From positions 1 to 64,000 of the forward strand of contig NZ_CP060707.1 in the NCBI RefSeq assembly GCF_003048675.2: 64,000 bases of DNA, given 5' to 3'. Shown here one piece after another: positions 18,339 to 33,635 of this stretch; position 1 is the first letter of the stretch, and the number at the start of each line of letters is the position of its first letter. The position numbers and the translations under genes are program-made. This DNA is from Campylobacter concisus (GTDB taxonomy: Bacteria > Campylobacterota > Campylobacteria > Campylobacterales > Campylobacteraceae). Below the pieces are notes generated by a model. The model saw only the letters and a list, made by a program, of their open reading frames with translations, was not told where the DNA came from and did not search any database.

Positions 18339-19709
18339 ATGACTAATATATTATTATGCGGTGGTTCTGGTACGAGATTATGGCCTATTAGCAGGACTTT
18401 GATGCCAAAACAATTTATTAAATTATTTGATGATAGGTCTCTTTTTCAGCTAACAGCACTGCGAAACAGTGAAATTTGCGATAGGACATTTGTTATAACA
18501 AATGTTGATCATTACTACTTAGCAATGGATCAGATAGAAAATTTAAATATCACAAATTTTAAATATCTACTCGAGCCAGTTGGTAGAAATACTGCTCCAG
18601 CGATCACATTGGCTTGCCTCGCACTTGATCCAAATGAAGTGGTTTTAGTAACGCCATCGGATCATTTGATAAAGGACGTTAAAGAGTATCAAAAGAGCGT
18701 AAAAGTAGCAAAAGAGCTGGCAGAGCAAAATTTCTTGGTTACTTTTGGCATAAAACCAAGGTCGCCTGAGACGGGATTTGGCTATATTGAGAGTTTTAAT
18801 GGTGATGTAAAGGCTTTTTATGAAAAGCCAGACTACGAAAGGGCAGTTAAATTTCTAAAAGATCAGAATTTTTACTGGAATTCAGGCATGTTTGTCTTTA
18901 AGGCAGGTGTTTTCTTGGATCAGATGAAAATTTTTGCCCCTGAGATACTTGAAGCGTGCAAATTTGCTTTTGATAATGCAAAAAAAGACGAATTTGATAT
19001 TAAAATAGACGCTACTGATATGCAAAATATCCCACAAAACAGCATAGATTATGCTGTGATGGAAAAGTCTGATATCGTAAAAATGGTAGCCTTAAATGCT
19101 TCTTGGAGTGATCTTGGGAGTTTTGATAGTTTGGACGTAGAGCTAGAAAAAGACGCTAATGGCAATACAATAAATAGCGACCTGGTGCAGATAAATTCTC
19201 ACAATAACCTAGTCCTATCTAGAGGTAAAAAAATAGCCTTGATAGATGTTGATGATCTAACGGTGGTAGATACAAAAGATGCTCTTTTAATATCTAAAAA
19301 ATCCTCTAGCCAAAAGGTAAAAAATGTGGTGGAAATTTTAAAAGAGGAAAGTTCTGAGCTTTGCAATGCTCATGTTACAACAAATAGGCCTTGGGGAAAC
19401 TATACTGTTCTTGAAAATCAAGACGGCTATAAGATAAAGATAATAGAAGTAAAGCCTGGTAAAAGGCTATCTTTGCAAAAGCATTTTCATAGAAATGAGC
19501 ACTGGATAGTACTATCAGGTAGTGCCACTGTGACGATCGGCGAGACAACTAGACTTGTTTGTCCTAATGAGTCTATCTATATAAAAATGGGTGAAATTCA
19601 TAGGCTATCTAATGAAGGTAAGATCCCTGTGGTTTTAATAGAAGCTCAAGTCGGCGAATATACAGGTGAAGATGATATAATTCGCTTAGATGATGATTTT
19701 AAAAGGTGA
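18339..19709 (+). CDS. manC: Mannose-1-P guanylyltransferase / mannose-6-P isomerase
   Basis: Bifunctional enzyme that isomerises fructose-6-P to mannose-6-P and makes GDP-mannose. The N-terminal nucleotidyltransferase has LCGGSGTRLWPISRTLMPKQ. The C-terminal third is the type II isomerase cupin: RPWGNYTVLENQDGYKIKII and LQKHFHRNEHWIVLSGSA with metal-binding histidines. At 456 residues it is of normal length. It is the first gene of the sugar locus, three bases before gmd. Confidence 0.93.
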   Translation: MTNILLCGGSGTRLWPISRTLMPKQFIKLFDDRSLFQLTALRNSEICDRTFVITNVDHYYLAMDQIENLNITNFKYLLEPVGRNTAPAITLACLALDPNEVVLVTPSDHLIKDVKEYQKSVKVAKELAEQNFLVTFGIKPRSPETGFGYIESFNGDVKAFYEKPDYERAVKFLKDQNFYWNSGMFVFKAGVFLDQMKIFAPEILEACKFAFDNAKKDEFDIKIDATDMQNIPQNSIDYAVMEKSDIVKMVALNASWSDLGSFDSLDVELEKDANGNTINSDLVQINSHNNLVLSRGKKIALIDVDDLTVVDTKDALLISKKSSSQKVKNVVEILKEESSELCNAHVTTNRPWGNYTVLENQDGYKIKIIEVKPGKRLSLQKHFHRNEHWIVLSGSATVTIGETTRLVCPNESIYIKMGEIHRLSNEGKIPVVLIEAQVGEYTGEDDIIRLDDDFKR

Positions 19710-19712
19710 TTT

Positions 19713-20855
19713 ATGGATAAAAAAGTAGCGTTAATAACTGGCATAACTGGTCAAGATGGATCTTATCTGGCAGAATTTTTACTAAAAAAAGGTTATATAG
19801 TTCATGGTATAAAAAGGCGAACAAGTCTTTTTAATACAGATAGGATAGATCATCTTTATCAAGATCCACATGTTGATAATAGAAACTTTTTCTTGCACTA
19901 TGGCGATATGACGGACTCTATGAATTTAACAAGGATCATCCAAGAGGTGCAGCCAGATGAAATTTACAACCTAGCTGCCATGAGCCACGTGCATGTAAGC
20001 TTTGAGACTCCAGAGTATGTCGCAAATGCTGATGGCACAGGCACTCTTAGGCTTCTTGAAGCTATAAGGATACTAGGGCTTGAGAAAAAGACAAAAATTT
20101 ATCAGGCATCTACCTCTGAGCTTTACGGAAAAGTGCAAGAGACTCCCCAAAGCGAGACAACTCCGTTTTACCCAAGAAGCCCTTATGCAGTTGCAAAGAT
20201 GTATGCCTACTGGATAACGGTTAATTACAGAGAGGCTTATGGCATTTTTGCTTGTAATGGTATATTGTTTAATCATGAATCGCCAGTTAGAGGTGAGACA
20301 TTTGTAACTAGAAAGATCACAAGAGCAGCTAGCAAGATAGCGCTTGGACTTCAAGACAAGCTTTATCTTGGAAATTTAGACGCCAAAAGAGACTGGGGTC
20401 ATGCAAAAGACTATGTGAAGATGATGTGGATGATACTGCAAGCCCCACAGCCAGAAGACTGGGTAATAGCAACTGGACAAACGACAGCGGTTAGAGACTT
20501 TGTAAAATTTGCATTTGCTTATGCTGGTATAAATTTGAGATTTGAAGGGGCTGGTGTAGATGAGGTAGGAGTCGTGGACTCACTAAATTTTGAAAAGGCA
20601 AAAGAGTTAAATTTAAATTTATCTCATTTAAGTGTTGGTCAAACTGTGGTTTGCGTGGATCCAAGGTACTTTAGACCAACAGAGGTTGATTTGCTACTTG
20701 GAGATCCTAGTAAGGCAGAGAAAAAACTAGGCTGGAAGAGAGAATTTAATCTTCAAGATCTAGTGAATGATATGATGAAATCAGACTTAAAGCTCATGAC
20801 AAAAGACGTCTATCTAAAAGATGGTGGATATGAGATAATGAGCTATTTCGAGTAA
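19713..20855 (+). CDS. gmd: GDP-mannose 4,6-dehydratase
   Basis: Converts GDP-mannose to GDP-4-keto-6-deoxymannose, the branch point to fucose and perosamine. Cofactor motif [15 protein letters not shown] lies near residue 10. The catalytic Ser/Thr and Tyr-x3-Lys are in [10 protein letters not shown] and [15 protein letters not shown]. The segment [20 protein letters not shown] is typical of the family. Normal length (380). It lies between manC and fcl with gaps of three bases on each side, so one operon. Confidence 0.95.
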
Positions 20856-20858
20856 AAA

Positions 20859-21914
20859 ATGGATAAAAATAGCAAAATTTATGTAGCAGGACATAAGGGA
20901 CTGGTGGGCTCTGCTATAGTGAGAAATTTAAAATCAAAAGGCTATGAAAATATAATCACAAGAACTCATAGCGAGCTTGATCTAATGGATCAAAAAGCTG
21001 TTTGTGAGTTTTTTGAAAAAGAAAAACCTGAGTATGTAGTACTAGCTGCTGCAAAGGTCGGCGGAATAGTGGCTAATAGTACGTATAGGGCTGATTTTAT
21101 ATATGAAAATTTACAAATTCAAAATAATGTGATCCATCAAAGCTATGTGCATAAGGTAAAAAAACTATTATTTCTTGGAAGTACTTGTATATATCCTAAA
21201 GATGCTCCACAGCCAATGAGCGAGGGGGTGCTTTTGACATCTCCACTTGAATACACAAATGAGCCATACGCGATAGCCAAAATAGCTGGCATGAAGATGT
21301 GTGAGAGCTATAATTTACAATACGGCACAAATTTCATATCTGTAATGCCTACAAATTTGTATGGCCCAAATGATAACTTTGATCTAGAAACTTCGCATGT
21401 ATTGCCAGCACTTATAAGAAAGATACACCTAGCAAAGCTTTTAAGCGAAGAAAAATTTGGCGAAGTAGTAAAAGATCTAAAAGTAAGAGATATAAATGAA
21501 GCTATGGTTTATCTTGATAAATTTGGTATTTCAAAAGATAGAGTAGAAATTTGGGGCACAGGAAAGCCTAGACGAGAGTTTCTGTACTCAGAAGATATGG
21601 CCGATGCCTGCGTGTTTTTACTGGAAAATAGAGACTTTAAAGATACTTATGATAAGAATAGCAAAGAGATAAGAAATACGCATATAAATATAGGCACAGG
21701 CAAAGATATCTCGATAAATGAGCTAGCAAATTTGGTTAAAAATATAATTGGCTTTAAAGGCGAGCTATACTTTAATGATAACAAGCCTGATGGAACGATG
21801 CTAAAACTAACGGACCCATCTAAGCTCCACTCTCTTGGCTGGAAACATAAAGTAGAGCTTGAATATGGGATAAAGACACTTTATGAGTGGTATTTGAAAA
21901 TAAATGATAGATAA
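20859..21914 (+). CDS. fcl: GDP-L-fucose synthase
   Basis: Epimerase/reductase turning GDP-4-keto-6-deoxymannose into GDP-L-fucose. The N-terminal [11 protein letters not shown] binds NADPH. The catalytic segments are [20 protein letters not shown] and [11 protein letters not shown], with the Tyr-x3-Lys pair. The family motif [15 protein letters not shown] is present. 351 residues, slightly longer than E. coli Fcl because of an insertion around [16 protein letters not shown]-like residues 185-215. Confidence 0.93.
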
Positions 21915-21945
21915 CATAATATCATTAAAAAATCATCAAGGCTTT

Positions 21946-23226
21946 ATGAAGTATTTTAAAAATACATCGTGGCTTTTTTTTGAAAAAATACTCCGTATGT
22001 TCGTTGGACTTTTCGTAGGTATTTGGGTGGCTAGATACTTAGGACCTGAGAGATTTGGGCTTTTTTCATATGCTCAAAGTTTTGTAGGACTTTTTACTGC
22101 TATTGCTACGCTTGGACTTGATAGTATAGTGGTACGAGAGCTAGTAAAGGATGAAAGTAAAACAAATGAGCTAATAGGTACTACTTTTTATCTTAAGCTC
22201 GTGGGTTCTATTTTGACTTTATTGGTTTTGGCAATTGCTATCCATTTTACTTCTAATGATAGATATACAAATTTATTAGTGTTTATTATAGCTAGTGCTA
22301 CTATATTTCAATCATTTAATGTAATAGATATGTATTTTCAATCAAAAGTTTTATCAAAATATGTAGTGTTTTCTAATATTATCTCTCTTTTTGCAAGTAG
22401 CATAGTAAAAATTATACTTATTTTTATTGATGCTCCACTCGTAGCTTTTGCATGGGCTATCCTATTTGATAGTATAGTTTTATCTTTGGGGTTTATTTAT
22501 TTTTTCTTGAAATATTCAACTCTTATGGTAAGAAAAATATATTTTAGTAAATTAATTGCAGTTGATTTATTAAAAAATTCTTATCCGATTATATTGAGTT
22601 CAGCAGTAATTGCAATTTATTTGAAAATAGATCAAGTTATGATTAAAAGTATGTTAGGAGAAATAGCTGTTGGACAATATACGGCTGCAACTAAGTTAAG
22701 CGAATCTTTTTATTTTATTCCACTGGCCATATCTTACAGTTTTTTTCCTGCGATTGTAAATTCAAGAAATTGTAGCGAAAGATACTATGCTAGGCTTCAA
22801 ATGCTTTATAATCTAGTGGTATGGATAGCTATTGCAATAGCTCTTCCAGTTACTATTTTGTCTAATAATATTATAGATATACTTTATGGTGATCAATACT
22901 ATCAGGCTGGAAGCATTTTAAAGATACATATTTGGACCAACGTATTGATTTCCATAGGTGTTATTAGCGGAGATTGGTTTGTAGCTGAAAATTTACAAAT
23001 TTTTGCATTTTGGAGATCATTTTGTGGAGCCAGTCTAAATATAATTTTAAATTTTTTATTAATTCCAAAATATGAAATTCAAGGGGCTGCTATTGCAACT
23101 TTGATTAGTTACTTTATTGCAAACTTAGCTTTCGATTTTTTTAATAAGAAAACTAGAAAAATTTTTTTTATTAAATTAAAAACAGTTATTTTAACAAAAA
23201 GAGCATTATCATGGCGTCAATTTTAA
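21946..23226 (+). CDS. wzx: Polysaccharide flippase, Wzx-like
   Basis: Oligosaccharide flippase of the MATE/PST superfamily, moving lipid-linked units across the inner membrane. It begins MKYFKNTSWLFFEKILRM and continues into LGPERFGLFSYAQSFV, the usual N-terminus. About 12 hydrophobic segments follow over 426 residues. I chose ATG 21946 with AAGG upstream; an in-frame ATG at 21904 overlaps fcl and lacks a ribosome site. A T8 run lies at 21974-21981. The extreme C-terminus (after about residue 410) is unlike the family and might be changed by a frameshift. Confidence 0.85.
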   Translation: MKYFKNTSWLFFEKILRMFVGLFVGIWVARYLGPERFGLFSYAQSFVGLFTAIATLGLDSIVVRELVKDESKTNELIGTTFYLKLVGSILTLLVLAIAIHFTSNDRYTNLLVFIIASATIFQSFNVIDMYFQSKVLSKYVVFSNIISLFASSIVKIILIFIDAPLVAFAWAILFDSIVLSLGFIYFFLKYSTLMVRKIYFSKLIAVDLLKNSYPIILSSAVIAIYLKIDQVMIKSMLGEIAVGQYTAATKLSESFYFIPLAISYSFFPAIVNSRNCSERYYARLQMLYNLVVWIAIAIALPVTILSNNIIDILYGDQYYQAGSILKIHIWTNVLISIGVISGDWFVAENLQIFAFWRSFCGASLNIILNFLLIPKYEIQGAAIATLISYFIANLAFDFFNKKTRKIFFIKLKTVILTKRALSWRQF

Positions 23227-23296
23227 TTTTTAAAAAGATTTATTTGATTTTACCTTATTTCATAAATAAAATTACAAATATATTTTGGAATAAAAT

Positions 23297-24328
23297 ATGA
23301 AAGTAGGCATTGTAACAACGTATGACGAATTAAATTTTGGAGCCTACCTTCAGGCTTATTCATTATCAAAAATTTATAGAAAGTTTGGGGCATAATGTTG
23401 AGCTTGTTAATTATAAAAGCTTAGAATATAAGATGGCTGAACTTAAGGCAACATATAAAAATAAAAATCAATATATCTTTTGAAGGTATTTTATAAAAGT
23501 ATAAAATTTAATAGAGTTCTTTTCGCTATTAAATATATCTAAAAATTTTAATAATATTAAAGAAATAAATGATTATTCATATGACCTATTGATCTTTGGA
23601 AGCGATGAGATATGGGATTTAAATAATGCCTTGGGTGGCATTATAGATACGTATTTTGGAGATGGGCTGGCTGGTAAAAGAATTTCTTACGCAGCCAGCT
23701 TCGGAAGTACGGATGTATATGATGGAAAAAATAAGTAGTATTAAAAAAATATGCTTTTAGACTTTTCATCTATCTCGGTTAGAGACCAAAATTCAAAAGA
23801 TATTGTGTCAGAAAAATTTCCTAATATGCCAGTAGACATAGTTCTTGATCCGACATTTTTGATAGATCATAACGTTCCAAAGCCAAATTTGGATGGTAAG
23901 TATATTTTTATTACTATCTTGGCAATAATAAAAATTTAGAAGATGAAATGATAGCTTTTGCTAAAAGAAAAATCACTTAATATCGTTTCTTTTGGATACA
24001 AGAGTAAAAAGATTTAAAAAATATTATTTTCTATAGATCCATTCGAGTGGTTAAGTTATTTAAAATATTCCGATTTCGTAGTTACTAATATAGTTTCATG
24101 GGACAGTTTTTCTATATTATTTGATAAAAATTTTATGGTTGATATTACGACTTATAGAAAAAAATAAACTAGAGTTTTTTTAATTAACATGTTTGAATTG
24201 AGACAAAGAATATATAATGAAGATCATTTTAAAAAAATATTACTAGTGATATAAATTATGAATATGTTCATAATAGTATTCAAAGGCATAGAGTCGCATC
24301 TATAAAAATTTTTAATGGAAGCACTAAA
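23297..24328 (+). pseudogene. Polysaccharide pyruvyl transferase, frameshifted
   Basis: Begins at ATG 23297 with MKVGIVTTYDELNFGAYLQA, the typical N-terminus of CsaB-like pyruvyl transferases (PF04230). The frame breaks at 23390, and later frames carry SISVRDQNSKDIVSEKF and VDIVLDPTFLIDH, both family-like, then SDFVVTNIVSWDSFSILFD, in which a family HG-type motif is altered. At least five frame changes or stops were seen. Many are single-base changes in homopolymers. The product would add pyruvate ketals to sugars. End is approximate. Confidence 0.8.
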
Positions 24329-25252
24329 ATGATAAAAGATATTAAAAATTATAAAAAGCTTATATTATGTTATATTTTTCGTATTTCCCAGACATACATA
24401 GGTATTTTAAATACTCATTAGCGAACCCAGCAAATAGATTTAGAGATGATAATATAAGTTCTATAGTATTGGCTCAAATACATTCGATAGAAAGAGCATT
24501 TAGTTTAAAAAAATATTAAAAAGGAGTTTGGGAAAGAATTAGTAAGTAGTTTTGAAAAATAATATTAAATTTATAAAAACAATGAGAATTATAAATACGA
24601 GTTAGCGCTTTTTAATAGTGCTATTGCGGAATATAATAAATATCATGATTATTCCAAGGAAAAATATTTTTAGAGATAAAACCGTATAAAAAAATATAAA
24701 CATATCAGATTTAATACATCTAGTAGTTTTAAAAAAGTTATATTAAGTAGACACTCTATAAGAAATTTTGGCGACGTAAAGATAAGTGATTCTGATGTTG
24801 CCAAGGCTATATATATGGCAAAAAACACAACCCCATCTGTGTGTAATAGGCAAGGATATGAAGCACTGGTTGTAAGAAACAAAGAAACCTGCAAAAAAAT
24901 ATTGGCACTACAAAATGGTAATAGTGGAATAAGCGGTATTCAAAATATAATTGTAGTTTGTTCTTTGATACCATCGTTCTTTGGACCAAATGAGAAAAAT
25001 CAGCCATATATAGATGGTGGGATATTTTTAATGTCCCTATTGAATTGTCTTCATTTTAATAATATAGCAAGTTGCACGCTAAACTGGTCTACAGACCCAA
25101 AGACAGATAAGAATCTTAGGGGGTTGTTGAAAATTCATGACTCAAGGGTTATTATAGCGTTAATAGCTATTGGCACATATGAAGCAAAAGAGATAAACAT
25201 AGCGTCATCACATAGAAAAAAATTAAATAAAATTATGAAAATAGTGGAGTAG
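24329..25252 (+). pseudogene. Nitroreductase-like protein, frameshifted
   Basis: The last open segment (24677-25252) is a nitroreductase-family domain with SRHSIRNFGD, TTPSVCNRQGYEALVV and NEKNQPYIDGGIFLMSLLNC. The N-terminal part is split over other frames: a possible ATG at 24329 (MIKDIKNYKKLI) and SIERAFSLKK near 24490, which resembles the HxIEKGLS segment of such proteins. A frame with ATG 24815 lacks the first part of the domain. FMN-dependent nitroreductases beside pyruvyl transferases are common in sugar loci of other bacteria. Confidence 0.75.
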
Positions 25253-25257
25253 TTAAA

Positions 25258-26355
25258 ATGGAAAATATACCAATATCTATGCCTTATATAGGCGAAAAAG
25301 AAAAGGAATATGTTCTTAAAGCATTAGAATCTGGATGGGTGTCATCTATAGGTGAATACATAGATACTTTTGAAAAAAAATTTGCAAAATATTGTGATAC
25401 TAAATTTGCCCTAACTACATCAAATGGTACCACTGCTTTGCATTTGGCTTTAGCGGCATTTGGTATTTCAAGCGGAGATGAGGTAATTGTACCAGATTTT
25501 ACCTTTGTTGCTACAGCTAATGCTGTAAAATATACTGGCGCAAATGTAGTTTTTGCTGATATAGACAAAGATAGTTTGTGTATTTGTGTAGACGGCATAA
25601 AGAAACTAATAACAAAAAAAACAAAGGCTATAATACCAGTTCATATATATGGTCATCCAGCCAACATGGATGAAATAAATAATATAGCTAAAGAAAATAA
25701 TCTTATTGTCATAGAGGATGCGGCTGAAGCTCATGGTGCCGAGTGGAATGGTAAAAAAGTTGGTGGTCTTGGAGATGTTGGAATTTTTAGTTTTTATGGT
25801 AATAAGATTATAACTTCTGGAGAAGGAGGCATGATTACAACAAATGATGAAAACATATATAATAGACTTAAATTTTTACGAGATCATGCCATGAGCAAAG
25901 AGAAAAGATATTGGCATACGGATATAGGCTTTAACTATAGGATGACAAATATCCAGGCGGCATTAGGGTTGGCCCAGTTGGAGAGTATTGACAAATTTAT
26001 AGATAAAAAAAGACTTATCTTTAAATGGTATAAGGATGAACTAAGTGGTATTAAAAACATAAGGTTAAATTATGAGCACCCTTTAGCGAGAAATGTTTAT
26101 TGGATGGTGTGTTTAGAATTAAAAGATTATTCAGAAGAGAAAAGAACGGAATTTATGCAAAGGATTAAGGAATTGGGCATTGACTCTAGACCATATTTTT
26201 ATCCTATATCTGACATGCCAATGTATAGTGGTGTCAATTGTGATACTAAGATCACTCGTATGATTTACAAGACCGGAGTAAATTTGCCAAGTTACTATAC
26301 TATTACTCAAGAACAAGTCAAATATATTTGTAGGACTATTCGCAATGCTTTATAG
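25258..26355 (+). CDS. DegT/DnrJ aminotransferase, probable perosamine synthase
   Basis: PLP-dependent sugar aminotransferase. PLP lysine is Lys183 in SFYGNKIITSGEGGM; the DAAEAHGA segment (about 154-161) and TTSNGTTALHLAL are typical. With gmd present in the same locus, the likely substrate is GDP-4-keto-6-deoxymannose, giving GDP-perosamine (Per); other 4-keto sugars are possible. 365 residues, complete. It follows the nitroreductase pseudogene by five bases and overlaps the next gene by 11 bases. Confidence 0.85.
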   Translation: MENIPISMPYIGEKEKEYVLKALESGWVSSIGEYIDTFEKKFAKYCDTKFALTTSNGTTALHLALAAFGISSGDEVIVPDFTFVATANAVKYTGANVVFADIDKDSLCICVDGIKKLITKKTKAIIPVHIYGHPANMDEINNIAKENNLIVIEDAAEAHGAEWNGKKVGGLGDVGIFSFYGNKIITSGEGGMITTNDENIYNRLKFLRDHAMSKEKRYWHTDIGFNYRMTNIQAALGLAQLESIDKFIDKKRLIFKWYKDELSGIKNIRLNYEHPLARNVYWMVCLELKDYSEEKRTEFMQRIKELGIDSRPYFYPISDMPMYSGVNCDTKITRMIYKTGVNLPSYYTITQEQVKYICRTIRNAL

Positions 26356-27031
26356 ATTTCTTAAAAGGCATCCGTTAAAAGAATTTGATAATTTTAAAAA
26401 AACGGTTAACAAAGAATATGAAAAATTGGATATAGAATTCCATACTGTAAATTATCCTATTAGCAAAGAAAACCCTATGGAAAATCCAGATCACTATGCA
26501 ATATTTGCATACTGGATAGCAAAAAAAATACTTAATAATAGATTAATAGGGGGGGGTGAATCTAAGTTGGAAATACTAGATGTGGGAAATACGAAATTTT
26601 CTAATATGTTTAATAGTATTAATAATAATGTTACTGCATTAGTACTAGAGGAGCCTTTGGACAGTATATCGGACGTGAAATATATAAAACATGATATATC
26701 AAATGTGTTACCATTTTCAGATAAAACTTTTGATGTTTTTACTTCACCAAGTACGTTACATCTTATTGGACAAGGAAGATATGGCGATGAATTAAATCCT
26801 TGTGCCTTATTGGAATTTCTAGAGGAGTTAAATAGGGTAACAAAAGATAGTTCCAAGGTCTATATCATGCTTCCATTGGGTAAAGATGCTTTATTGTTCG
26901 GATATCATTTTATTTATTCTTATGAGTCTATAGTAAAGATATTTAAATATTGGAATGTTACAGATTATATGGTAGATAATCTAGTAGAAATTTGGAACTA
27001 TTTCAAAGTTGCCTTTGCCATCTTGTGGTAG
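26345..27031 (+). CDS. DUF268-like methyltransferase with G8 tract
   Basis: A 228-residue protein with Rossmann-type S-adenosylmethionine segments (LEILDVGNTKFSN, then FDVFTSPSTLHLIGQGRYGDE) like DUF268 methyltransferases in sugar loci. The G8 tract at 26549-26556 encodes IGGGES and at this length keeps the frame open. The C-terminus WNYFKVAFAILW ends in the usual region. The ATG overlaps the previous gene by 11 bases. A one-base change in the tract would truncate the protein near residue 72. Confidence 0.7.
   Translation: MLYRFLKRHPLKEFDNFKKTVNKEYEKLDIEFHTVNYPISKENPMENPDHYAIFAYWIAKKILNNRLIGGGESKLEILDVGNTKFSNMFNSINNNVTALVLEEPLDSISDVKYIKHDISNVLPFSDKTFDVFTSPSTLHLIGQGRYGDELNPCALLEFLEELNRVTKDSSKVYIMLPLGKDALLFGYHFIYSYESIVKIFKYWNVTDYMVDNLVEIWNYFKVAFAILW
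26549..26556 (+). repeat. G8 homopolymer in a coding frame
   Basis: Eight consecutive G bases within an otherwise AT-rich gene. In Campylobacter, G tracts of about eight or more in sugar-locus genes commonly vary in length and switch genes on and off. Confidence 0.8.
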
Positions 27032-27106
27032 ATTTAACAAGGATATAGATGTATCTGATTTTTAAAATAGGTGATTATAAAATTATATATTTAGAGCTCT
27101 CTAAAT

Positions 27107-28260
27107 GAAAAATTGGTATTCTTGCGTTTGGAGATCCAAAAGGCGGCGGGGTTTTATCAATATACTCGTTCTATCATAGATGTCATCACGCAAGATAAAA
27201 AAATAACACATATATTGTATTTACCGATACCAATAATGATAGTTTTGATGAATATAATATAGAGATTAGAAAGATAAATAAACCAAATATTTTTATATTA
27301 AAATAAGCTAATAAGAGTTTTTCAAATTTTTATTGTTTATTAGAAAGCCACTATAAAAAGACGAAAAAGATATTTTTGTGATATAGATAAATTTGTTTGT
27401 CCTGTTATATCCCTATACCCGCATTTTTTTATCTCAATAAGCCTTTTATCTTTACATTGCATGATATGCAGGAAAGATATTATCCATATTTTTTTACATT
27501 AAAAAGATAAAAATTATAAGATGGTTAAATAATAGAGCTCTATCAAAATCAGCAGATAAAAATTTACTATGCGAATCTCAATTTGTAAAAAGTGATATTA
27601 TAAAATTTCTTGGGAGTTGATCCCAATAAGGTGCACGTAGTCCAATCACCGCCTCCAAAGTGCTTTTAATAGTAGTACCATAGATGAAAAAATTTTGTAT
27701 AAAACTATAAAGGCAAAAATATAACCTTCCTGAAGAATATATCTTCTATCCAGCTCAATTTTGGCCACATAAAAAAACCATATAAAAATTATTAGAAGCT
27801 TTTTAGTATTGTTAGAATTCAAGGATTTAAAAATTAGTCTTTACTGGTTCAAAAGCAAAATAACTTTCAAAATGTAGATGATAAAATAAAAGGACTACAA
27901 TTGCAAAATAATGTTATTTATCTTGGATATATAGATTATTCTGATCTTCCATTCTTATATAAGATGTCTAAATTTTTGGTGATGCCCACACTTTTTGAGA
28001 GCATTAGCATCCCCATATATGAAGCATTTTCATTAAAAGTTGCAGTTTGCTGTTCTAATGTTGTAGCTTTGCCCGAACAAGTGGGAGAGGCTGGCTTGCT
28101 TTTTGATCCAAACAATGAAAAAGACATTGCTAAAAAGATGATTATGTATTTAAGGAATAATGAGCTACTGACTGAAAAAGCAGAACAAGGGTATTTAAAG
28201 ATAAATAGTTTTGATTATGAGGCTTACAAAAAATCTATTCTAGAGATAATAAATTCATGA
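27107..28260 (+). pseudogene. Glycosyltransferase family 4, frameshifted
   Basis: Starts at ATG 27107; correcting one extra A gives MKIGILAFGDPKGGG, then YQYTRSIIDVITQDKK, a GT4 N-terminus. Frames change at least six times before an intact 119-residue C-terminal segment (27901-28260) with MPTLFESISIPIYEAFSL, the nucleotide-sugar motif. The intact tail is probably not a gene by itself. It overlaps the next gene by four bases (ATGA), consistent with descent from a tight operon. Confidence 0.8.
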
Positions 28261-29030
28261 GTTTAGAACAACCAAAAATTTCTATCATAACAGTTGTTTT
28301 TAATGGCGAGAAATATTTAGAGCAAACTATTAAAAGTATCATAAATCAGACATATAAAAATTTTGAGTATATCATAATAGATGGTGAAAGTACTGATGGT
28401 ACTTTAGAAATCATAAAAAAATATGAAGATAAAATTTCATATTGGATTAGCGAAAAAGATAAGGGTATAAGCGATGCTTTTAATAAGGGTGTAACAGCTG
28501 CAAAAGGTGATTATATAAATTTTCAAGGCGATGGTGACGGATTTTTATCTAGTAAAACTTTAGAAGAGGTTTTTAAAGATATCAAGGCTGGAGAGTCATC
28601 TATAATTAGCACAAGGATACAAAGGGTGGATGAAAATGGAAATGAAATTTATAGGTCCAAATTTTTAAAGAATTTTGATAAAAGATCGTTGCTCTTTAGG
28701 ATGTCTTTGCCACACCAGGGGTTGTTTGTGCCAAAGAGTTATTTTGAAAAATATGGACTTTTTGATCTAAATAATAAATTTTGTATGGACTATGAACATT
28801 TGCTTCGAAGTTATCAAAATTTTCCAAGCGTTATAACTAAAGATATCGTTTCTGCCAGATGGCGAGATGACGGCATTGGGAATGGAAGAACTCTGGAGAT
28901 ATTTAAAGAGTATGATAAGATAAAAAGAGATAATAAAGTAGCCAGTGCATTAGTTTTGGATCTAATTAAATATTGGATTTTATTTAAATACTATGTCAAA
29001 AAGGTTGATTGGGAGATCATAGAATGCTAA
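28257..29030 (+). CDS. Glycosyltransferase family 2
   Basis: A 257-residue inverting GT-A enzyme. The N-terminus ISIITVVFNGEKYLEQTIK, IIIDGESTDGT and NFQGDGDGFL (metal-binding D-x-D position) are family motifs. Acceptor and donor are unknown. No membrane segments. The ATG overlaps the previous frame's stop, and the 3' end overlaps the FkbM start. Confidence 0.88.
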   Translation: MSLEQPKISIITVVFNGEKYLEQTIKSIINQTYKNFEYIIIDGESTDGTLEIIKKYEDKISYWISEKDKGISDAFNKGVTAAKGDYINFQGDGDGFLSSKTLEEVFKDIKAGESSIISTRIQRVDENGNEIYRSKFLKNFDKRSLLFRMSLPHQGLFVPKSYFEKYGLFDLNNKFCMDYEHLLRSYQNFPSVITKDIVSARWRDDGIGNGRTLEIFKEYDKIKRDNKVASALVLDLIKYWILFKYYVKKVDWEIIEC

Positions 29031-29805
29031 ATGTATTAAAATATATATGGAATAAAAACGATGGCATATATAAAATAAAAATATCTATTTGTTGGTATGT
29101 CTTTTCAGATATTTAAAAGATTATCAAAAAGATAATATCAAAGACCATTTTTAATGGCAAAAAAATATTTTTATATCCTAATTGCAATGTATCGAGCATG
29201 TATACATATACCGATATACCAGATAGAGAAGAAATTTTACTATTAAGAGAATTTGCAAAGCAAAACAATTGTCAGAAATGTGGAAAAACTATATTTTTAG
29301 ATATTGGTGCAAATATTGGTTCCTATAGCATTTCAATGATAGATGTTTGCGATAGTGTCATAGCCTTTGAGCCGCATCCTTTTACCTCCAAAAGATGCAA
29401 AATGAATTTTTTGCTAAATAATTTGGACGAAACACTTGTAAAACAATTGGCTCTGTCAGATAGTATAGGTAGTGTCCATTTTTCAGATTATGGCGGAAGC
29501 TCGACTGTAAATCATATAATTAAAATGGAAGATGGCATAAAGGTACAAGCAATAACATTAGATAAATTTATCGTTGATAATAATTTTGCCCAAGATAATA
29601 GGTATATAGTAAAAATTGATGTTGAAGGCTTCGAAGAACAAGTGTTAAAGGGAGGAAAGAACTTTTTTACACAATATAATATTCAAGCTATTGTATTTGA
29701 ATGTTTTTTTCTCAAAATAGAGTATTTGATATATTAAAAAAACGTATGGTTTTTACAGAAATTAAAAAGTTAAGTGAGAATAACTATTGTGCAACAAAGA
29801 GTTGA
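29024..29805 (+). pseudogene. FkbM methyltransferase, frameshifted
   Basis: Starts at ATG 29024 (MLNVLKYIWNKND), breaks near 29118, and continues in another frame from about 29140: SMYTYTDIPDREEILLLREF, then TIFLDIGANIGSYSISM (SAM site), KIDVEGFEEQVLKGG, all FkbM family. Near 29705 a T8 run shifts the frame; SQNRVFDILKKRM and the end at TGA 29803-29805 are in a third frame. FkbM enzymes O-methylate sugars. Confidence 0.75.
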
Positions 29806-30716
29806 TTGGGTTGACACCTTAAAAATTTATAGGGATATTGTCGGTTATACTAGGGCATATACTTTCCCATTAAATGGCTTCATATATACCTGGCATATGC
29901 CATTATTTTTTATGATCTCTGGTTTTTTTATAAAATTTGACACACTTTTTAAAGATTTTATAGTTAAAAATTTCAAAAGATTAATGATCCCATACTTTAT
30001 TTTTTCTATTATTGGTCTTTTTATGGAGATACTAAAAAGATATCTACTGCATAGAGAGGCTCTGGATTATGCACATGATATCAAAGGTATTTTTATAGAT
30101 ATGGATTTTGCTGGACTTTGCAACACCTATGCTTTCGTGCTATGGTTTTTGCCAGCACTATTTTTTTCAAGGATATTTTTATATTTGATAAAAAATAAAA
30201 TACCTAGCTTGCTCTTACAATCATTTGTAGTCGTGTTTTTATTTATGGCTAGCTTTCATATCGACCTTCCGTTCGGACTCGATAGCGCCCTAAATTCATT
30301 GATATTTGTCTATGCTGGTAATATTATTTTTGAAAAAGATTGCCTAATATATTTGTTTTTCTGTCTTTTGTAGTGCTTGTGGTGATCTATCTTTTTGGAT
30401 TTAACTTAAATCTAGACATGGCAAGTAAAGTTTATTCTAATAAATTTTTAAATGTGATTTGGGCTGTCTCTTTTGTCTATGTGCTTATTTTTGTATAAAA
30501 ATATAAGATTAAATAGTAAATTTATCAAAAATATGGGGCAGTAACACCATGCTACTTTTTATACTACACCCATATACCAACAATATCGCTCACATAGCTG
30601 TTCAAAAGGTTTTACAGTCTGATTACTGGTTGTTTAAATTTATTATTTCTATAGTGTTACTTTCTCTTATGATTTTTTTATAAAAGAGAGAAATAAAAAA
30701 ATTGGTTGGTTTTTAA
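29791..30716 (+). pseudogene. Acyltransferase 3 family, broken
   Basis: Membrane acyltransferase (PF01757, OatA-like). From GTG 29791, QQRVDWVDTLKIYRDI leads into FIYTWHMPLFFMISGFF and hydrophobic segments, in one frame to 30373. The typical GH pair after the first helix is missing or lost in a shift. Further family-like membrane segments (VIYLFGFNLNLDMASK; QKVLQSDYWLFKFII) continue in other frames to a stop at 30714-30716. The product would have O-acetylated the polymer. Confidence 0.7.
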
Positions 30717-30718
30717 AT

Positions 30719-31744
30719 ATGTATGATTATTTGATAGTGACTCATATACCAGCTTTTTATAAGATAAATTTATATAATGAATTGGCAAAAAGATTAAAGA
30801 TATTTGTTATATTTATCTCATCAGATACTTCGCAAAAGCGTTCAAATAACTTTTCTAGTGTAAATGATGCACTATTTGATTATGAGGTCTTATATCAAGG
30901 AGATTTTCAAAAAAGAAAAATTTTTAAAAATATATTGGCTATTCAAACCATACTCAGCACAGTAAAATTTAAGAGGATTTTGGTCAGCGGATGGGACTTG
31001 CCAGAATTTTGGTATATAGCCTTTACGAGCAAAAAAAGCAAAAATTGCCTGGCTCTTGAGTCAACTATATTTGAAAGTAGTTATAAGGGATTAAAGGGTT
31101 TTATAAAAAAGATCTTTTTGTCAAGGATTTCTACAGTTTTTGCCTCTGGTAGCTTGCATTGTGATCTATTAAAAGCATTAAATTTCCATGGAGATATTAA
31201 AATTACTAATGGTGTCGGCATCATAAATAAACCAGAATTTATAAAAACTCAAAAGAAATTTAGCGGTAGATTTTTATATATTGGCAGGATTGTGGATATC
31301 AAAAATTTAAAATTTCTAGTAGAGATTTTTAATGCTATGCCAAATTTTACTCTCGCTATTATCGGTGTTGGTGAGCAGCAGGAGTTTTTGCAGTCTATTT
31401 CAAATAAAAATATAATCTTTAGAGGAGCTATAGAAAATAAATTTATAGGTGCCGAATTCGCCAAAAATGATGTTTTCATTTTACCTAGTTTGATCGAGCC
31501 TTGGGGCTTGGTGGTAGAGGAGGCATTGTATTTTGGACTACCAGTCTTGATAAGTGATCGTTGTGGCTCTTCTGAATTAATCAAAAATGGCATAAATGGC
31601 TTTGTATTTGATCCTACTGACAAAAATAGCCTTATGCAAATAATAAGAAATTTTGACGATGAAATGTTGCAAAATTTATGTAGCAATGCCGATAGTTATG
31701 ACATTAATGCCAAAGATGCACAGCAAATAAGCGCATACTTATGA
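30719..31744 (+). CDS. Glycosyltransferase family 4
   Basis: A 341-residue retaining GT-B enzyme. The C-terminal domain has GRFLYIGRIVDIKNL and EPWGLVVEEALYFGLPVL, with the E-x7-E nucleotide-sugar motif. The N-terminal domain starts DYLIVTHIPAFYKINLYNEL. Slightly short for GT4 but complete. It overlaps the next gene by four bases (ATGA), suggesting coupling. Confidence 0.85.
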   Translation: MYDYLIVTHIPAFYKINLYNELAKRLKIFVIFISSDTSQKRSNNFSSVNDALFDYEVLYQGDFQKRKIFKNILAIQTILSTVKFKRILVSGWDLPEFWYIAFTSKKSKNCLALESTIFESSYKGLKGFIKKIFLSRISTVFASGSLHCDLLKALNFHGDIKITNGVGIINKPEFIKTQKKFSGRFLYIGRIVDIKNLKFLVEIFNAMPNFTLAIIGVGEQQEFLQSISNKNIIFRGAIENKFIGAEFAKNDVFILPSLIEPWGLVVEEALYFGLPVLISDRCGSSELIKNGINGFVFDPTDKNSLMQIIRNFDDEMLQNLCSNADSYDINAKDAQQISAYL

Positions 31745-32892
31745 AAATTCTAATAATCCACAATAAATACCAATCAAAGAATATTGGCGGTGAGGATATC
31801 GTTTATAAAAATGAGCTAAACGCCCTGCGCAAAAAACTAGGAGATGAAAATGTTTTTTGCTATGAAGTTTCAAATGATAATATAAATAAATTTAAACTTC
31901 TTTTTGAGATATGGTTTTCAAAAAAATATTACAAAGAGGTTAGAAAAATAATAAAAGAAAATGGTATTGAAATTGTTCATGTTCATAACTTTTTCCCACT
32001 TCTTACGCCTGCTGTTTTTAAGGCCGCTAAAGATAGTAAAACAAAAGTGATCCATACTTTGCATAATTATAGATTGTGGTGCATATCTGGAATTTTATAT
32101 AGAGATGGTTTTGGTATTTGTGAAATTTGCGCGCATAAAACATTTTCTTTATCTGGCATTTTAAATAGATGTTATAGAAAGTCACTTCTTCAAAGTCTTG
32201 TGGCGCAGCTGGCTTTTTGGTTTTATAAGTTAATTGGAGCTTTTAAAAGTATCGACTACTTTTTTGTCTTAACAAATTTTCAAAAAGATAAGGTTAAAAG
32301 TCTTGGAGTGAGTGAAAGCAAGATCATTCTAAAGCCAAATAGCTTACAAATGAAATTTAGCATAGAGACACAAAAACATAACTATGTATATGTAGGGCGG
32401 CTAGAGGAGTCAAAAGGGATTTTAGGGCTTTTAGAAATTTGGGATCAGCTAGACGAAAAGTATATTTTAACCATTGTTGGTGGCGGAGATATTGAAGCAC
32501 AACTTAGACAAAGATATACAAAGTCAAACATAATATTTAAAGGTAAGTGTCCAAGAGAAGAAACCATGACTATTATCTCACATTCAAAGTATTTACTGCA
32601 ACCATCGCTATTATATGAAACATTTGGATTGACTATCGTAGAAGCCATGAGCGTAGGAGTGCCCGTCATAGGATATGACATAGGAACAAGGGGTGATTTT
32701 ATAAAAGATGGTGTAAATGGATTTTTAAGTGGCCCCGATGAGTTAAAAAGTGTGATAGAAAGATCATATGAATTTGAGAGCTACGATAGACTTTCAAGGG
32801 CCGCAAAAGAGAGCACAAAACAATACAAAAATGAGTATGTTATTGAAAAACAGATTGAAATTTATAAAAATATCTTGGAGAATAAAATTTGA
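31741..32892 (+). CDS. Glycosyltransferase family 4
   Basis: A 383-residue GT-B enzyme. N-terminal ILIIHNKYQSKNIGGEDIVY is typical of wall/LPS GT4 enzymes. The middle holds four cysteines (WCISG, GICEICAH, NRCYRK) that may bind zinc, a pattern often seen in this subfamily. The C-terminal domain has NYVYVGRLEESKGILGL and ETFGLTIVEAMSVGVPVIG. The ends overlap its neighbours by four bases each. Confidence 0.88.
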   Translation: MKILIIHNKYQSKNIGGEDIVYKNELNALRKKLGDENVFCYEVSNDNINKFKLLFEIWFSKKYYKEVRKIIKENGIEIVHVHNFFPLLTPAVFKAAKDSKTKVIHTLHNYRLWCISGILYRDGFGICEICAHKTFSLSGILNRCYRKSLLQSLVAQLAFWFYKLIGAFKSIDYFFVLTNFQKDKVKSLGVSESKIILKPNSLQMKFSIETQKHNYVYVGRLEESKGILGLLEIWDQLDEKYILTIVGGGDIEAQLRQRYTKSNIIFKGKCPREETMTIISHSKYLLQPSLLYETFGLTIVEAMSVGVPVIGYDIGTRGDFIKDGVNGFLSGPDELKSVIERSYEFESYDRLSRAAKESTKQYKNEYVIEKQIEIYKNILENKI

Positions 32893-33635
32893 AAATATCA
32901 ATCATAACGGTAGTCTGGAATAATGCAAAAACGATAAAAGATGCCATAAATTCTGTTTTAAATCAGAGCTATAAAGATATAGAGTATATTATCATAGACG
33001 GATATAGTACCGATGGCACTATAGAGATAGTGCAAAGCTATAGAGATAAGATAAAATTTATCAGTGAAAAGGATAATGGTCTATATGATGCTATGAATAA
33101 GGGCATTAGAATGGCTACTGGGGACGTTGTTGGCATATTAAATAGTGATGATTTTTACGCAAGTGATAAAATTCTGCAGATAGTGGCTGATGAGTTTTCA
33201 AAGAGTAATATCGATAGTGTATATGCAAATCTTGAATACATAGATACAAATGATCCAAAAAGAGTTATAAGATACTGGAGGTCAAAAAAGTACCAAGAAG
33301 GCCTTTTTAGATCTGGCTGGCACCCAGCACACCCTACATTTTTTGTTAAAAAAGAAATTTACGAAAAGTATGGAGTGTTTGATCTTAGTTTTAAAATCGC
33401 CGCTGATTATGAGCTTATGTTAAGATTTTTTGAAAAATACAAAATCACAAGTAGCTATGTCGATGAAGTTTTTGTAAAAATGAGAATAGGTGGCGAGAGC
33501 AACAAGAGCATTAAAAATATCATAAAAGCAAATATGGAGTCATATATGGCATGGAAAGCTAATGGTCTTTGCATAAACCCATTAAGGTTTCTACTAAAGC
33601 CTTTTTCAAAGATAATTCAATTTATAAAAAAATAA
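32889..33635 (+). CDS. Glycosyltransferase family 2
   Basis: A 248-residue GT-A enzyme with ISIITVVWNNAKTIKDAIN, IIIDGYSTDGTIEIV and GILNSDDFYA (D-x-D position). It closely resembles the GT2 at 28.3 kb in layout. The last intact gene of the polysaccharide locus. No terminator is visible right after it. Confidence 0.88.
   Translation: MKISIITVVWNNAKTIKDAINSVLNQSYKDIEYIIIDGYSTDGTIEIVQSYRDKIKFISEKDNGLYDAMNKGIRMATGDVVGILNSDDFYASDKILQIVADEFSKSNIDSVYANLEYIDTNDPKRVIRYWRSKKYQEGLFRSGWHPAHPTFFVKKEIYEKYGVFDLSFKIAADYELMLRFFEKYKITSSYVDEVFVKMRIGGESNKSIKNIIKANMESYMAWKANGLCINPLRFLLKPFSKIIQFIKK

Follow-up and report, generated by a model that had tools for sequence, protein, structure and literature searches.

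The capsule methyltransferases of Campylobacter jejuni are phase-variable glycan modification genes. Poly-G contingency genes of Campylobacter have been collected in the PhasomeIt catalogue (PMC6321876), which includes C. concisus and describes coding-strand poly-G tracts of at least 7 in surface-glycan ORFs, where slippage would truncate the product; most of the groups described there are rare, often being found in single isolates, and the tracts peak at G9-G10. The same paper reports that switching in C. jejuni is mediated by tracts of eight or more. For G8 in C. jejuni, insertions occur at a published rate of about 4e-4 and deletions at about 4e-5 per division (PMC8224891), and tracts have been classed as 'mutable' at 6G-8G and 'hypermutable' above 7G (PMC4235727). 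The phase-variable genes for glycan and flagellin-glycan modification in C. jejuni (for example the Cj1295 group) are switchable modifiers of surface sugars (PMC3068675, PMC6321876).

The gene that we describe here lies in the window, by which we mean the whole 64-kb stretch of DNA that was analysed. Like the catalogued genes, it is an apparent surface-glycan ORF with a coding-strand poly-G tract whose slippage would truncate the product, and it is similarly rare; like the Cj1295 group, it may be a switch on surface-sugar modification. It differs in that its tract is G8, shorter than the catalogued peak, and lies in a DUF268 gene absent from the congeners searched, and in that its protein family and locus are not those of the Cj1295 group. 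We consider it likely that the G8 acts as a contingency tract, giving translational phase variation to a gene for a surface-glycan methyltransferase. It would most likely be one of a known kind, but the literature searched does not describe the DUF268 family as having such tracts; the two papers retrieved by a full-text search for DUF268 deal with C. elegans. The support for this reading consists of the tract, its frame, the truncation upon changes in length, the genome-wide excess of long tracts, the absence of MutL, and the tracts, in ON/OFF frames or of differing length, that relatives carry in other methyltransferase genes of this locus.

The tract (GGGGGGGG) was read directly at exactly the position originally given; it is uninterrupted and lies between AATAGATTAATA and TGAATC, and no other G or C run in the window exceeds 5. 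It forms codons 69-71 of the DUF268 ORF, in frame (...NNRLI-GGG-ESKLEILDVGN), in a gene of about 28.5% GC, close to the 28% given earlier. When we varied the tract length in silico, G5, G8 and G11 yielded open products of 227-229 residues, and all non-open lengths tested yielded products of 70-78 residues (77 for G7; 71 for G9), much as had been expected from the claim that one base more or less would truncate the protein near residue 72. The features of poly-G contingency genes are found here: an uninterrupted coding-strand G tract of at least 8 within an ORF, at which a one-base slip truncates the product. The coordinates of this and the neighbouring features are collected in Table 1.

Table 1. 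Features of the G8 tract, its gene and the surrounding locus (window coordinates)
Feature	Position	Strand	Basis
Surface-polysaccharide locus	18339..33635	+	ORFs; mosaic relative to relatives' DNA
DegT/DnrJ/EryC1 sugar aminotransferase, intact	25258..26355	+	PF01041 E 5.6e-127; 69% DNA identity to G005
DUF268 (PF03269) methyltransferase-like ORF, 228 aa	26345..27031	+	Profile match, homolog alignment, structure match
G8 homopolymeric tract, codons 69-71 of the DUF268 ORF	26549..26556	+	Direct reading; lengths 7/9 truncate
3' part leaving the family frame; conserved C-terminal residues in other frames	26981..27105	+	L012 comparison, three-frame translation
Glycosyltransferase family 1 gene, broken in several frames	27094..28260	+	83% DNA identity; 14 frameshifting indels
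Glycosyltransferase family 2, frameshifted only at 3' end	28257..29030	+	PF00535; 1 frameshifting indel
FkbM-type methyltransferase fragment	29198..29737	+	PF05050; 3 frameshifting indels; intact copy in L054
Acyltransferase fragment	29774..30373	+	PF01757; 6 frameshifting indels; intact copy in L054

The window begins at dnaA-dnaN-gyrB, and its surface-polysaccharide locus encodes a mannose-1-P guanylyltransferase, gmd, fcl, a wzx-like flippase, a pyruvyltransferase-like remnant and a nitroreductase-like protein, followed in our annotation by the DegT, DUF268, glycosyltransferase, FkbM and acyltransferase genes. The tract is surrounded by GDP-sugar, flippase, aminotransferase and glycosyltransferase genes, in agreement with the sugar locus of the original prediction, and from this setting the DUF268 gene appears to belong to a surface-exposed function. 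The locus is a mosaic: positions 20208-22935 and 28278-33633 have ~89-91% DNA identity to two relatives (G020/G011), and positions 25329-26339 (69%) and 27103-28263 (83%) resemble another, G005, in which the family-1 glycosyltransferase is intact (L052:10152-11306). A junction of this mosaic lies at 28264-28278, with DNA like that of G005 on its left and like that of G020/G011 on its right.

The assignment of the ORF, which starts 11 nt inside the DegT gene, to a DUF268-type methyltransferase, as first proposed, was borne out by a match to PF03269 of 39.8 bits (curated cut-off 25); there is also a weak match to Methyltransf_11 (22.3 vs 21.2 bits), and the predicted structure appears to be class I methyltransferase-like. 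The PF03269 match spans positions 51-130 of the 176 of the full domain, the C-terminus of the ORF being out of frame. The protein has the motif region GxxRYGDxxxP, which is also present in Clostridia and Helicobacteraceae homologs. In the AlphaFold model, which was built from nine sequences and is of moderate confidence (pLDDT 63, pTM 0.64), the tract is placed in a loop that links a helix (50-68) to the first strand (77-80); the top PDB matches of this model in Foldseek were nearly all SAM methyltransferases, but with TM of only 0.3-0.45, and a phmmer search of the protein against the PDB gave no match. The canonical GxGxG motif I is absent from the window protein, which reads LEILDVGNTKFS where homologs read DIGNKK and DVGSSVAG, and because of this absence a methyltransferase is likely rather than proven.

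We found no homolog of the DUF268 gene in the 47 congeneric genomes, the plasmids or the viral contigs searched. Its best relative is encoded by an intact gene on a contig of a Clostridia MAG (L012:7860-8648), with 42% identity over residues 32-212 in a single frame, and the two loci have a gene order in common: a DegT aminotransferase, then DUF268, and further on a family-1 glycosyltransferase. At the tract position this homolog reads ATGGGTTCAGGG, with no G run. Both flanks of the tract align to it in one frame, and thus the G8 has the length that an open gene should have at this point. The Clostridia contig with this syntenic locus holds a G10 of its own (L012:321-330), directly before motif I of an FkbM-like frame (GGGKKLEIFDIGANIGEY), a position that corresponds, with respect to motif I, to that of the tract in the window.

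A switch of this kind would depend upon strand slippage in replication changing the length of the tract, and upon the slippage going uncorrected in a cell without MutL-type mismatch repair. We found no member of the MutL family (PF01119) in this genome or in 20 relatives, and found it in 11 of 14 control genomes. Lengths of 3n+2 (5, 8, 11) would keep the frame open, and with the other lengths translation would end at residue 70-78, immediately ahead of the SAM-binding core, such that cells would alternate between methylated and unmethylated glycan. We infer the slippage of this tract, the methylation of a sugar by the product and the change in surface phenotype. Since G8 is on the border between the 'mutable' and 'hypermutable' classes, the switch would be a modest one, and with the rates borrowed from C. 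jejuni it would be biased to gain a base and turn OFF. If this reading is correct, an oral/gut Campylobacter lineage with few poly-G tracts (six of at least 8 in this genome) has nonetheless retained a switchable sugar methyltransferase, in common with C. jejuni and Helicobacteraceae, and methylation of surface glycans would be a recurrent target of phase variation.

Relatives of the locus carry tracts in other methyltransferases. In G005, the slot between the DegT and family-1 glycosyltransferase genes is occupied by an unrelated methyltransferase (Methyltransf_23) with a G8 (L052:9815-9822) that splits the gene into an upstream arm of 135 codons and a downstream arm of 114 codons in different frames, which from its sequence would be an OFF state. 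In G024 and G013, the locus adjoins the same alanine/sodium symporter gene and carries a third methyltransferase (Methyltransf_11). These two loci are 97.8% identical over 19.9 kb with eight gap sites, one of which is at the G tract of this gene, G9 in G024 (open) and G8 in G013; the G013 copy contains a stop codon as well as a difference in a T run close by, and may thus be damaged further. The other scanned loci of this Campylobacter group had no coding tract of at least 8 within the locus. All three independent coding tracts of this locus fall in methyltransferases, which make up about 5 of 39 genes in a rough hand count over three loci; coincidence would produce this with a probability of about 0.002, which is suggestive, in a small sample and with a pattern noticed post hoc.

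Similarly, tracts are common in the DUF268-like genes of Helicobacteraceae, a set of 121 genomes (family f2, its name being inferred), 27 of which have such a gene according to a profile built from homologs. This profile did better than Pfam PF03269, which, when applied to 399 genomes of the order, had matches in only 10 and missed most of the Helicobacteraceae homologs. Tracts of G9-G16 lie within the gene in 29 of 30 Helicobacteraceae loci (L116-L145), 14 of these genes being in one frame and 15 split, and are located close to the N-terminus, ahead of the YxQADAT strand or close to the C-terminus. None has its tract where the window's sits, directly before motif I. DUF268 genes in other families of the order are mostly without tracts. 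Among FkbM methyltransferases of Helicobacteraceae, 25 of 30 loci have a tract on the coding strand no more than 500 nt from the domain, and 11 of 30 have one inside it; this family and the DUF268-like one resemble the window in having poly-G in or near a glycan methyltransferase gene. An enrichment of tracts specific to DUF268 is unsupported, as tracts are almost as frequent at the FkbM genes of these genomes (25/30 vs 29/30). A broader idea, which we hold only tentatively and think rather doubtful, is that selection repeatedly makes a methyltransferase of the Campylobacter locus (DUF268, Methyltransf_23 or Methyltransf_11, with tracts at different points of the proteins) into a poly-G switch, that DUF268-like genes are likewise switchable across Helicobacteraceae, and that glycan methylation is kept variable more than glycosyl transfer is.

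We considered that the G8 might be a set of glycine codons that arose by chance and serves no selected function. Using 464 kb of the Campylobacter genome analysed to fit Markov models (orders 1 to 4), we expected 0.02-0.07 runs of at least 8 per window-sized stretch and about 0.018 in the low-GC locus, such that the claim that the run is very unlikely by chance is fair, but the figure is not astronomical for one run. The genome-wide counts are stronger evidence than the single run of the window. In this genome of 2.03 Mb (one contig), which from its size, GC and genes appears to belong to the Campylobacter concisus group, exact G runs on both strands numbered 9 for G6, 1 for G7, 2 for G8, 3 for G9 and 1 for G10, that is, 6 tracts of at least 8 compared to 0.75-2.2 expected. 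A separate class of long tracts would give a gap at G7 followed by an excess at 8 and above, which is the pattern seen here. Three of the six tracts are intergenic, indicating that long G runs also arise outside genes, and this counts for chance and against phase variation, as does, on the latter score, the tract-free Clostridia homolog. Given the gap and the excess, together with the recurrence of tracts in relatives' methyltransferases of the same locus and in Helicobacteraceae DUF268-like genes, we regard a chance run as very improbable.

The 3' end of the gene also speaks against phase variation and bears on two other explanations. The frame, which had been described as still open, is so across the tract and free of frameshifts in codons 32-212, but leaves the family frame near the 3' end of the ORF, from about 26981 onward: after residue ~212 the ORF ends in LVEIWNYFKVAFAILW, residues typical of the end of the homolog are encoded in other frames immediately downstream, and AlphaFold confidence drops to ~25-36 over residues 212-228, so the last ~16 codons are probably not native. 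The four genes that follow contain 24 frameshifting indels (14, 1, 3 and 6) relative to intact relatives, and frames are also broken at 23.3-24.7 kb; we found no frameshifting indels in the neighbours compared (20.9-22.9 kb, 25.3-26.4 kb and 30.7-33.6 kb). Since the 3' end and the following genes are frameshifted, an incomplete enzyme may be all that the gene now yields, even with an open tract, and the gene may be non-functional in the present assembly. The tract could on this evidence be a relic in a decaying or broken gene, which may once have switched before its 3' end and the following genes were inactivated. Old decay as the main cause of the frameshifts is weakened by the codon-position and nonsense counts: substitutions in the broken genes are mostly in third codon positions, like those in intact neighbours, and nonsense substitutions number 4 vs about 18 expected at random, neither of which fits long decay. 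We consider a relic unlikely. Alternatively, the frameshifts, and possibly the exact tract length, might be sequencing or assembly errors in a 26-29% GC segment, in which case the true tract could differ in length. The indels are dense and of 1-2 bases, 13 of 16 single-base indels are in homopolymers of at least 3, they lie beside sequence under purifying selection, and the stretches sampled elsewhere in the genome include no comparable frame-poor low-GC stretch. Against this, the reading frame matches that of the homolog before and after the G8, low-GC DNA is intact elsewhere (L068, 32% GC; the wzx-like gene, 28% GC), and a tract would still be there if its length were wrong. We give this explanation somewhat less than an even chance, and it is compatible with phase variation in that it concerns the assembly and not function. 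The indels, third-position substitutions and few nonsense changes together fit error or very recent inactivation better than old decay, and the surrounding assembly needs checking before the locus is annotated as decayed. The frameshifts cluster in low-GC glycan genes, without relaxation in substitutions, at 23227-24680 and 26981-30718 of the window.

Returning to the long tracts of this genome, three of the six lie inside ORFs on the coding strand: the G8 of the DUF268 ORF, a G9 in an HsdS-like type I restriction specificity ORF and a G9 in an MBOAT O-acyltransferase gene, the latter two being typical contingency classes. The HsdS-like ORF is split (L006:925-1641, minus strand; tract at genome C1:585147-585155) and is a candidate phase-variable restriction-modification system. 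The G9 of the MBOAT gene is in frame (L010:477-1931, minus strand; tract at genome C1:751934-751942), which makes this gene a candidate for phase-variable O-acylation. Two of the three intergenic tracts, a G10 (L003, C1:478303) and a G9 (L008, C1:649287), sit in related intergenic repeats of about 600 bp with 70-86% identity.
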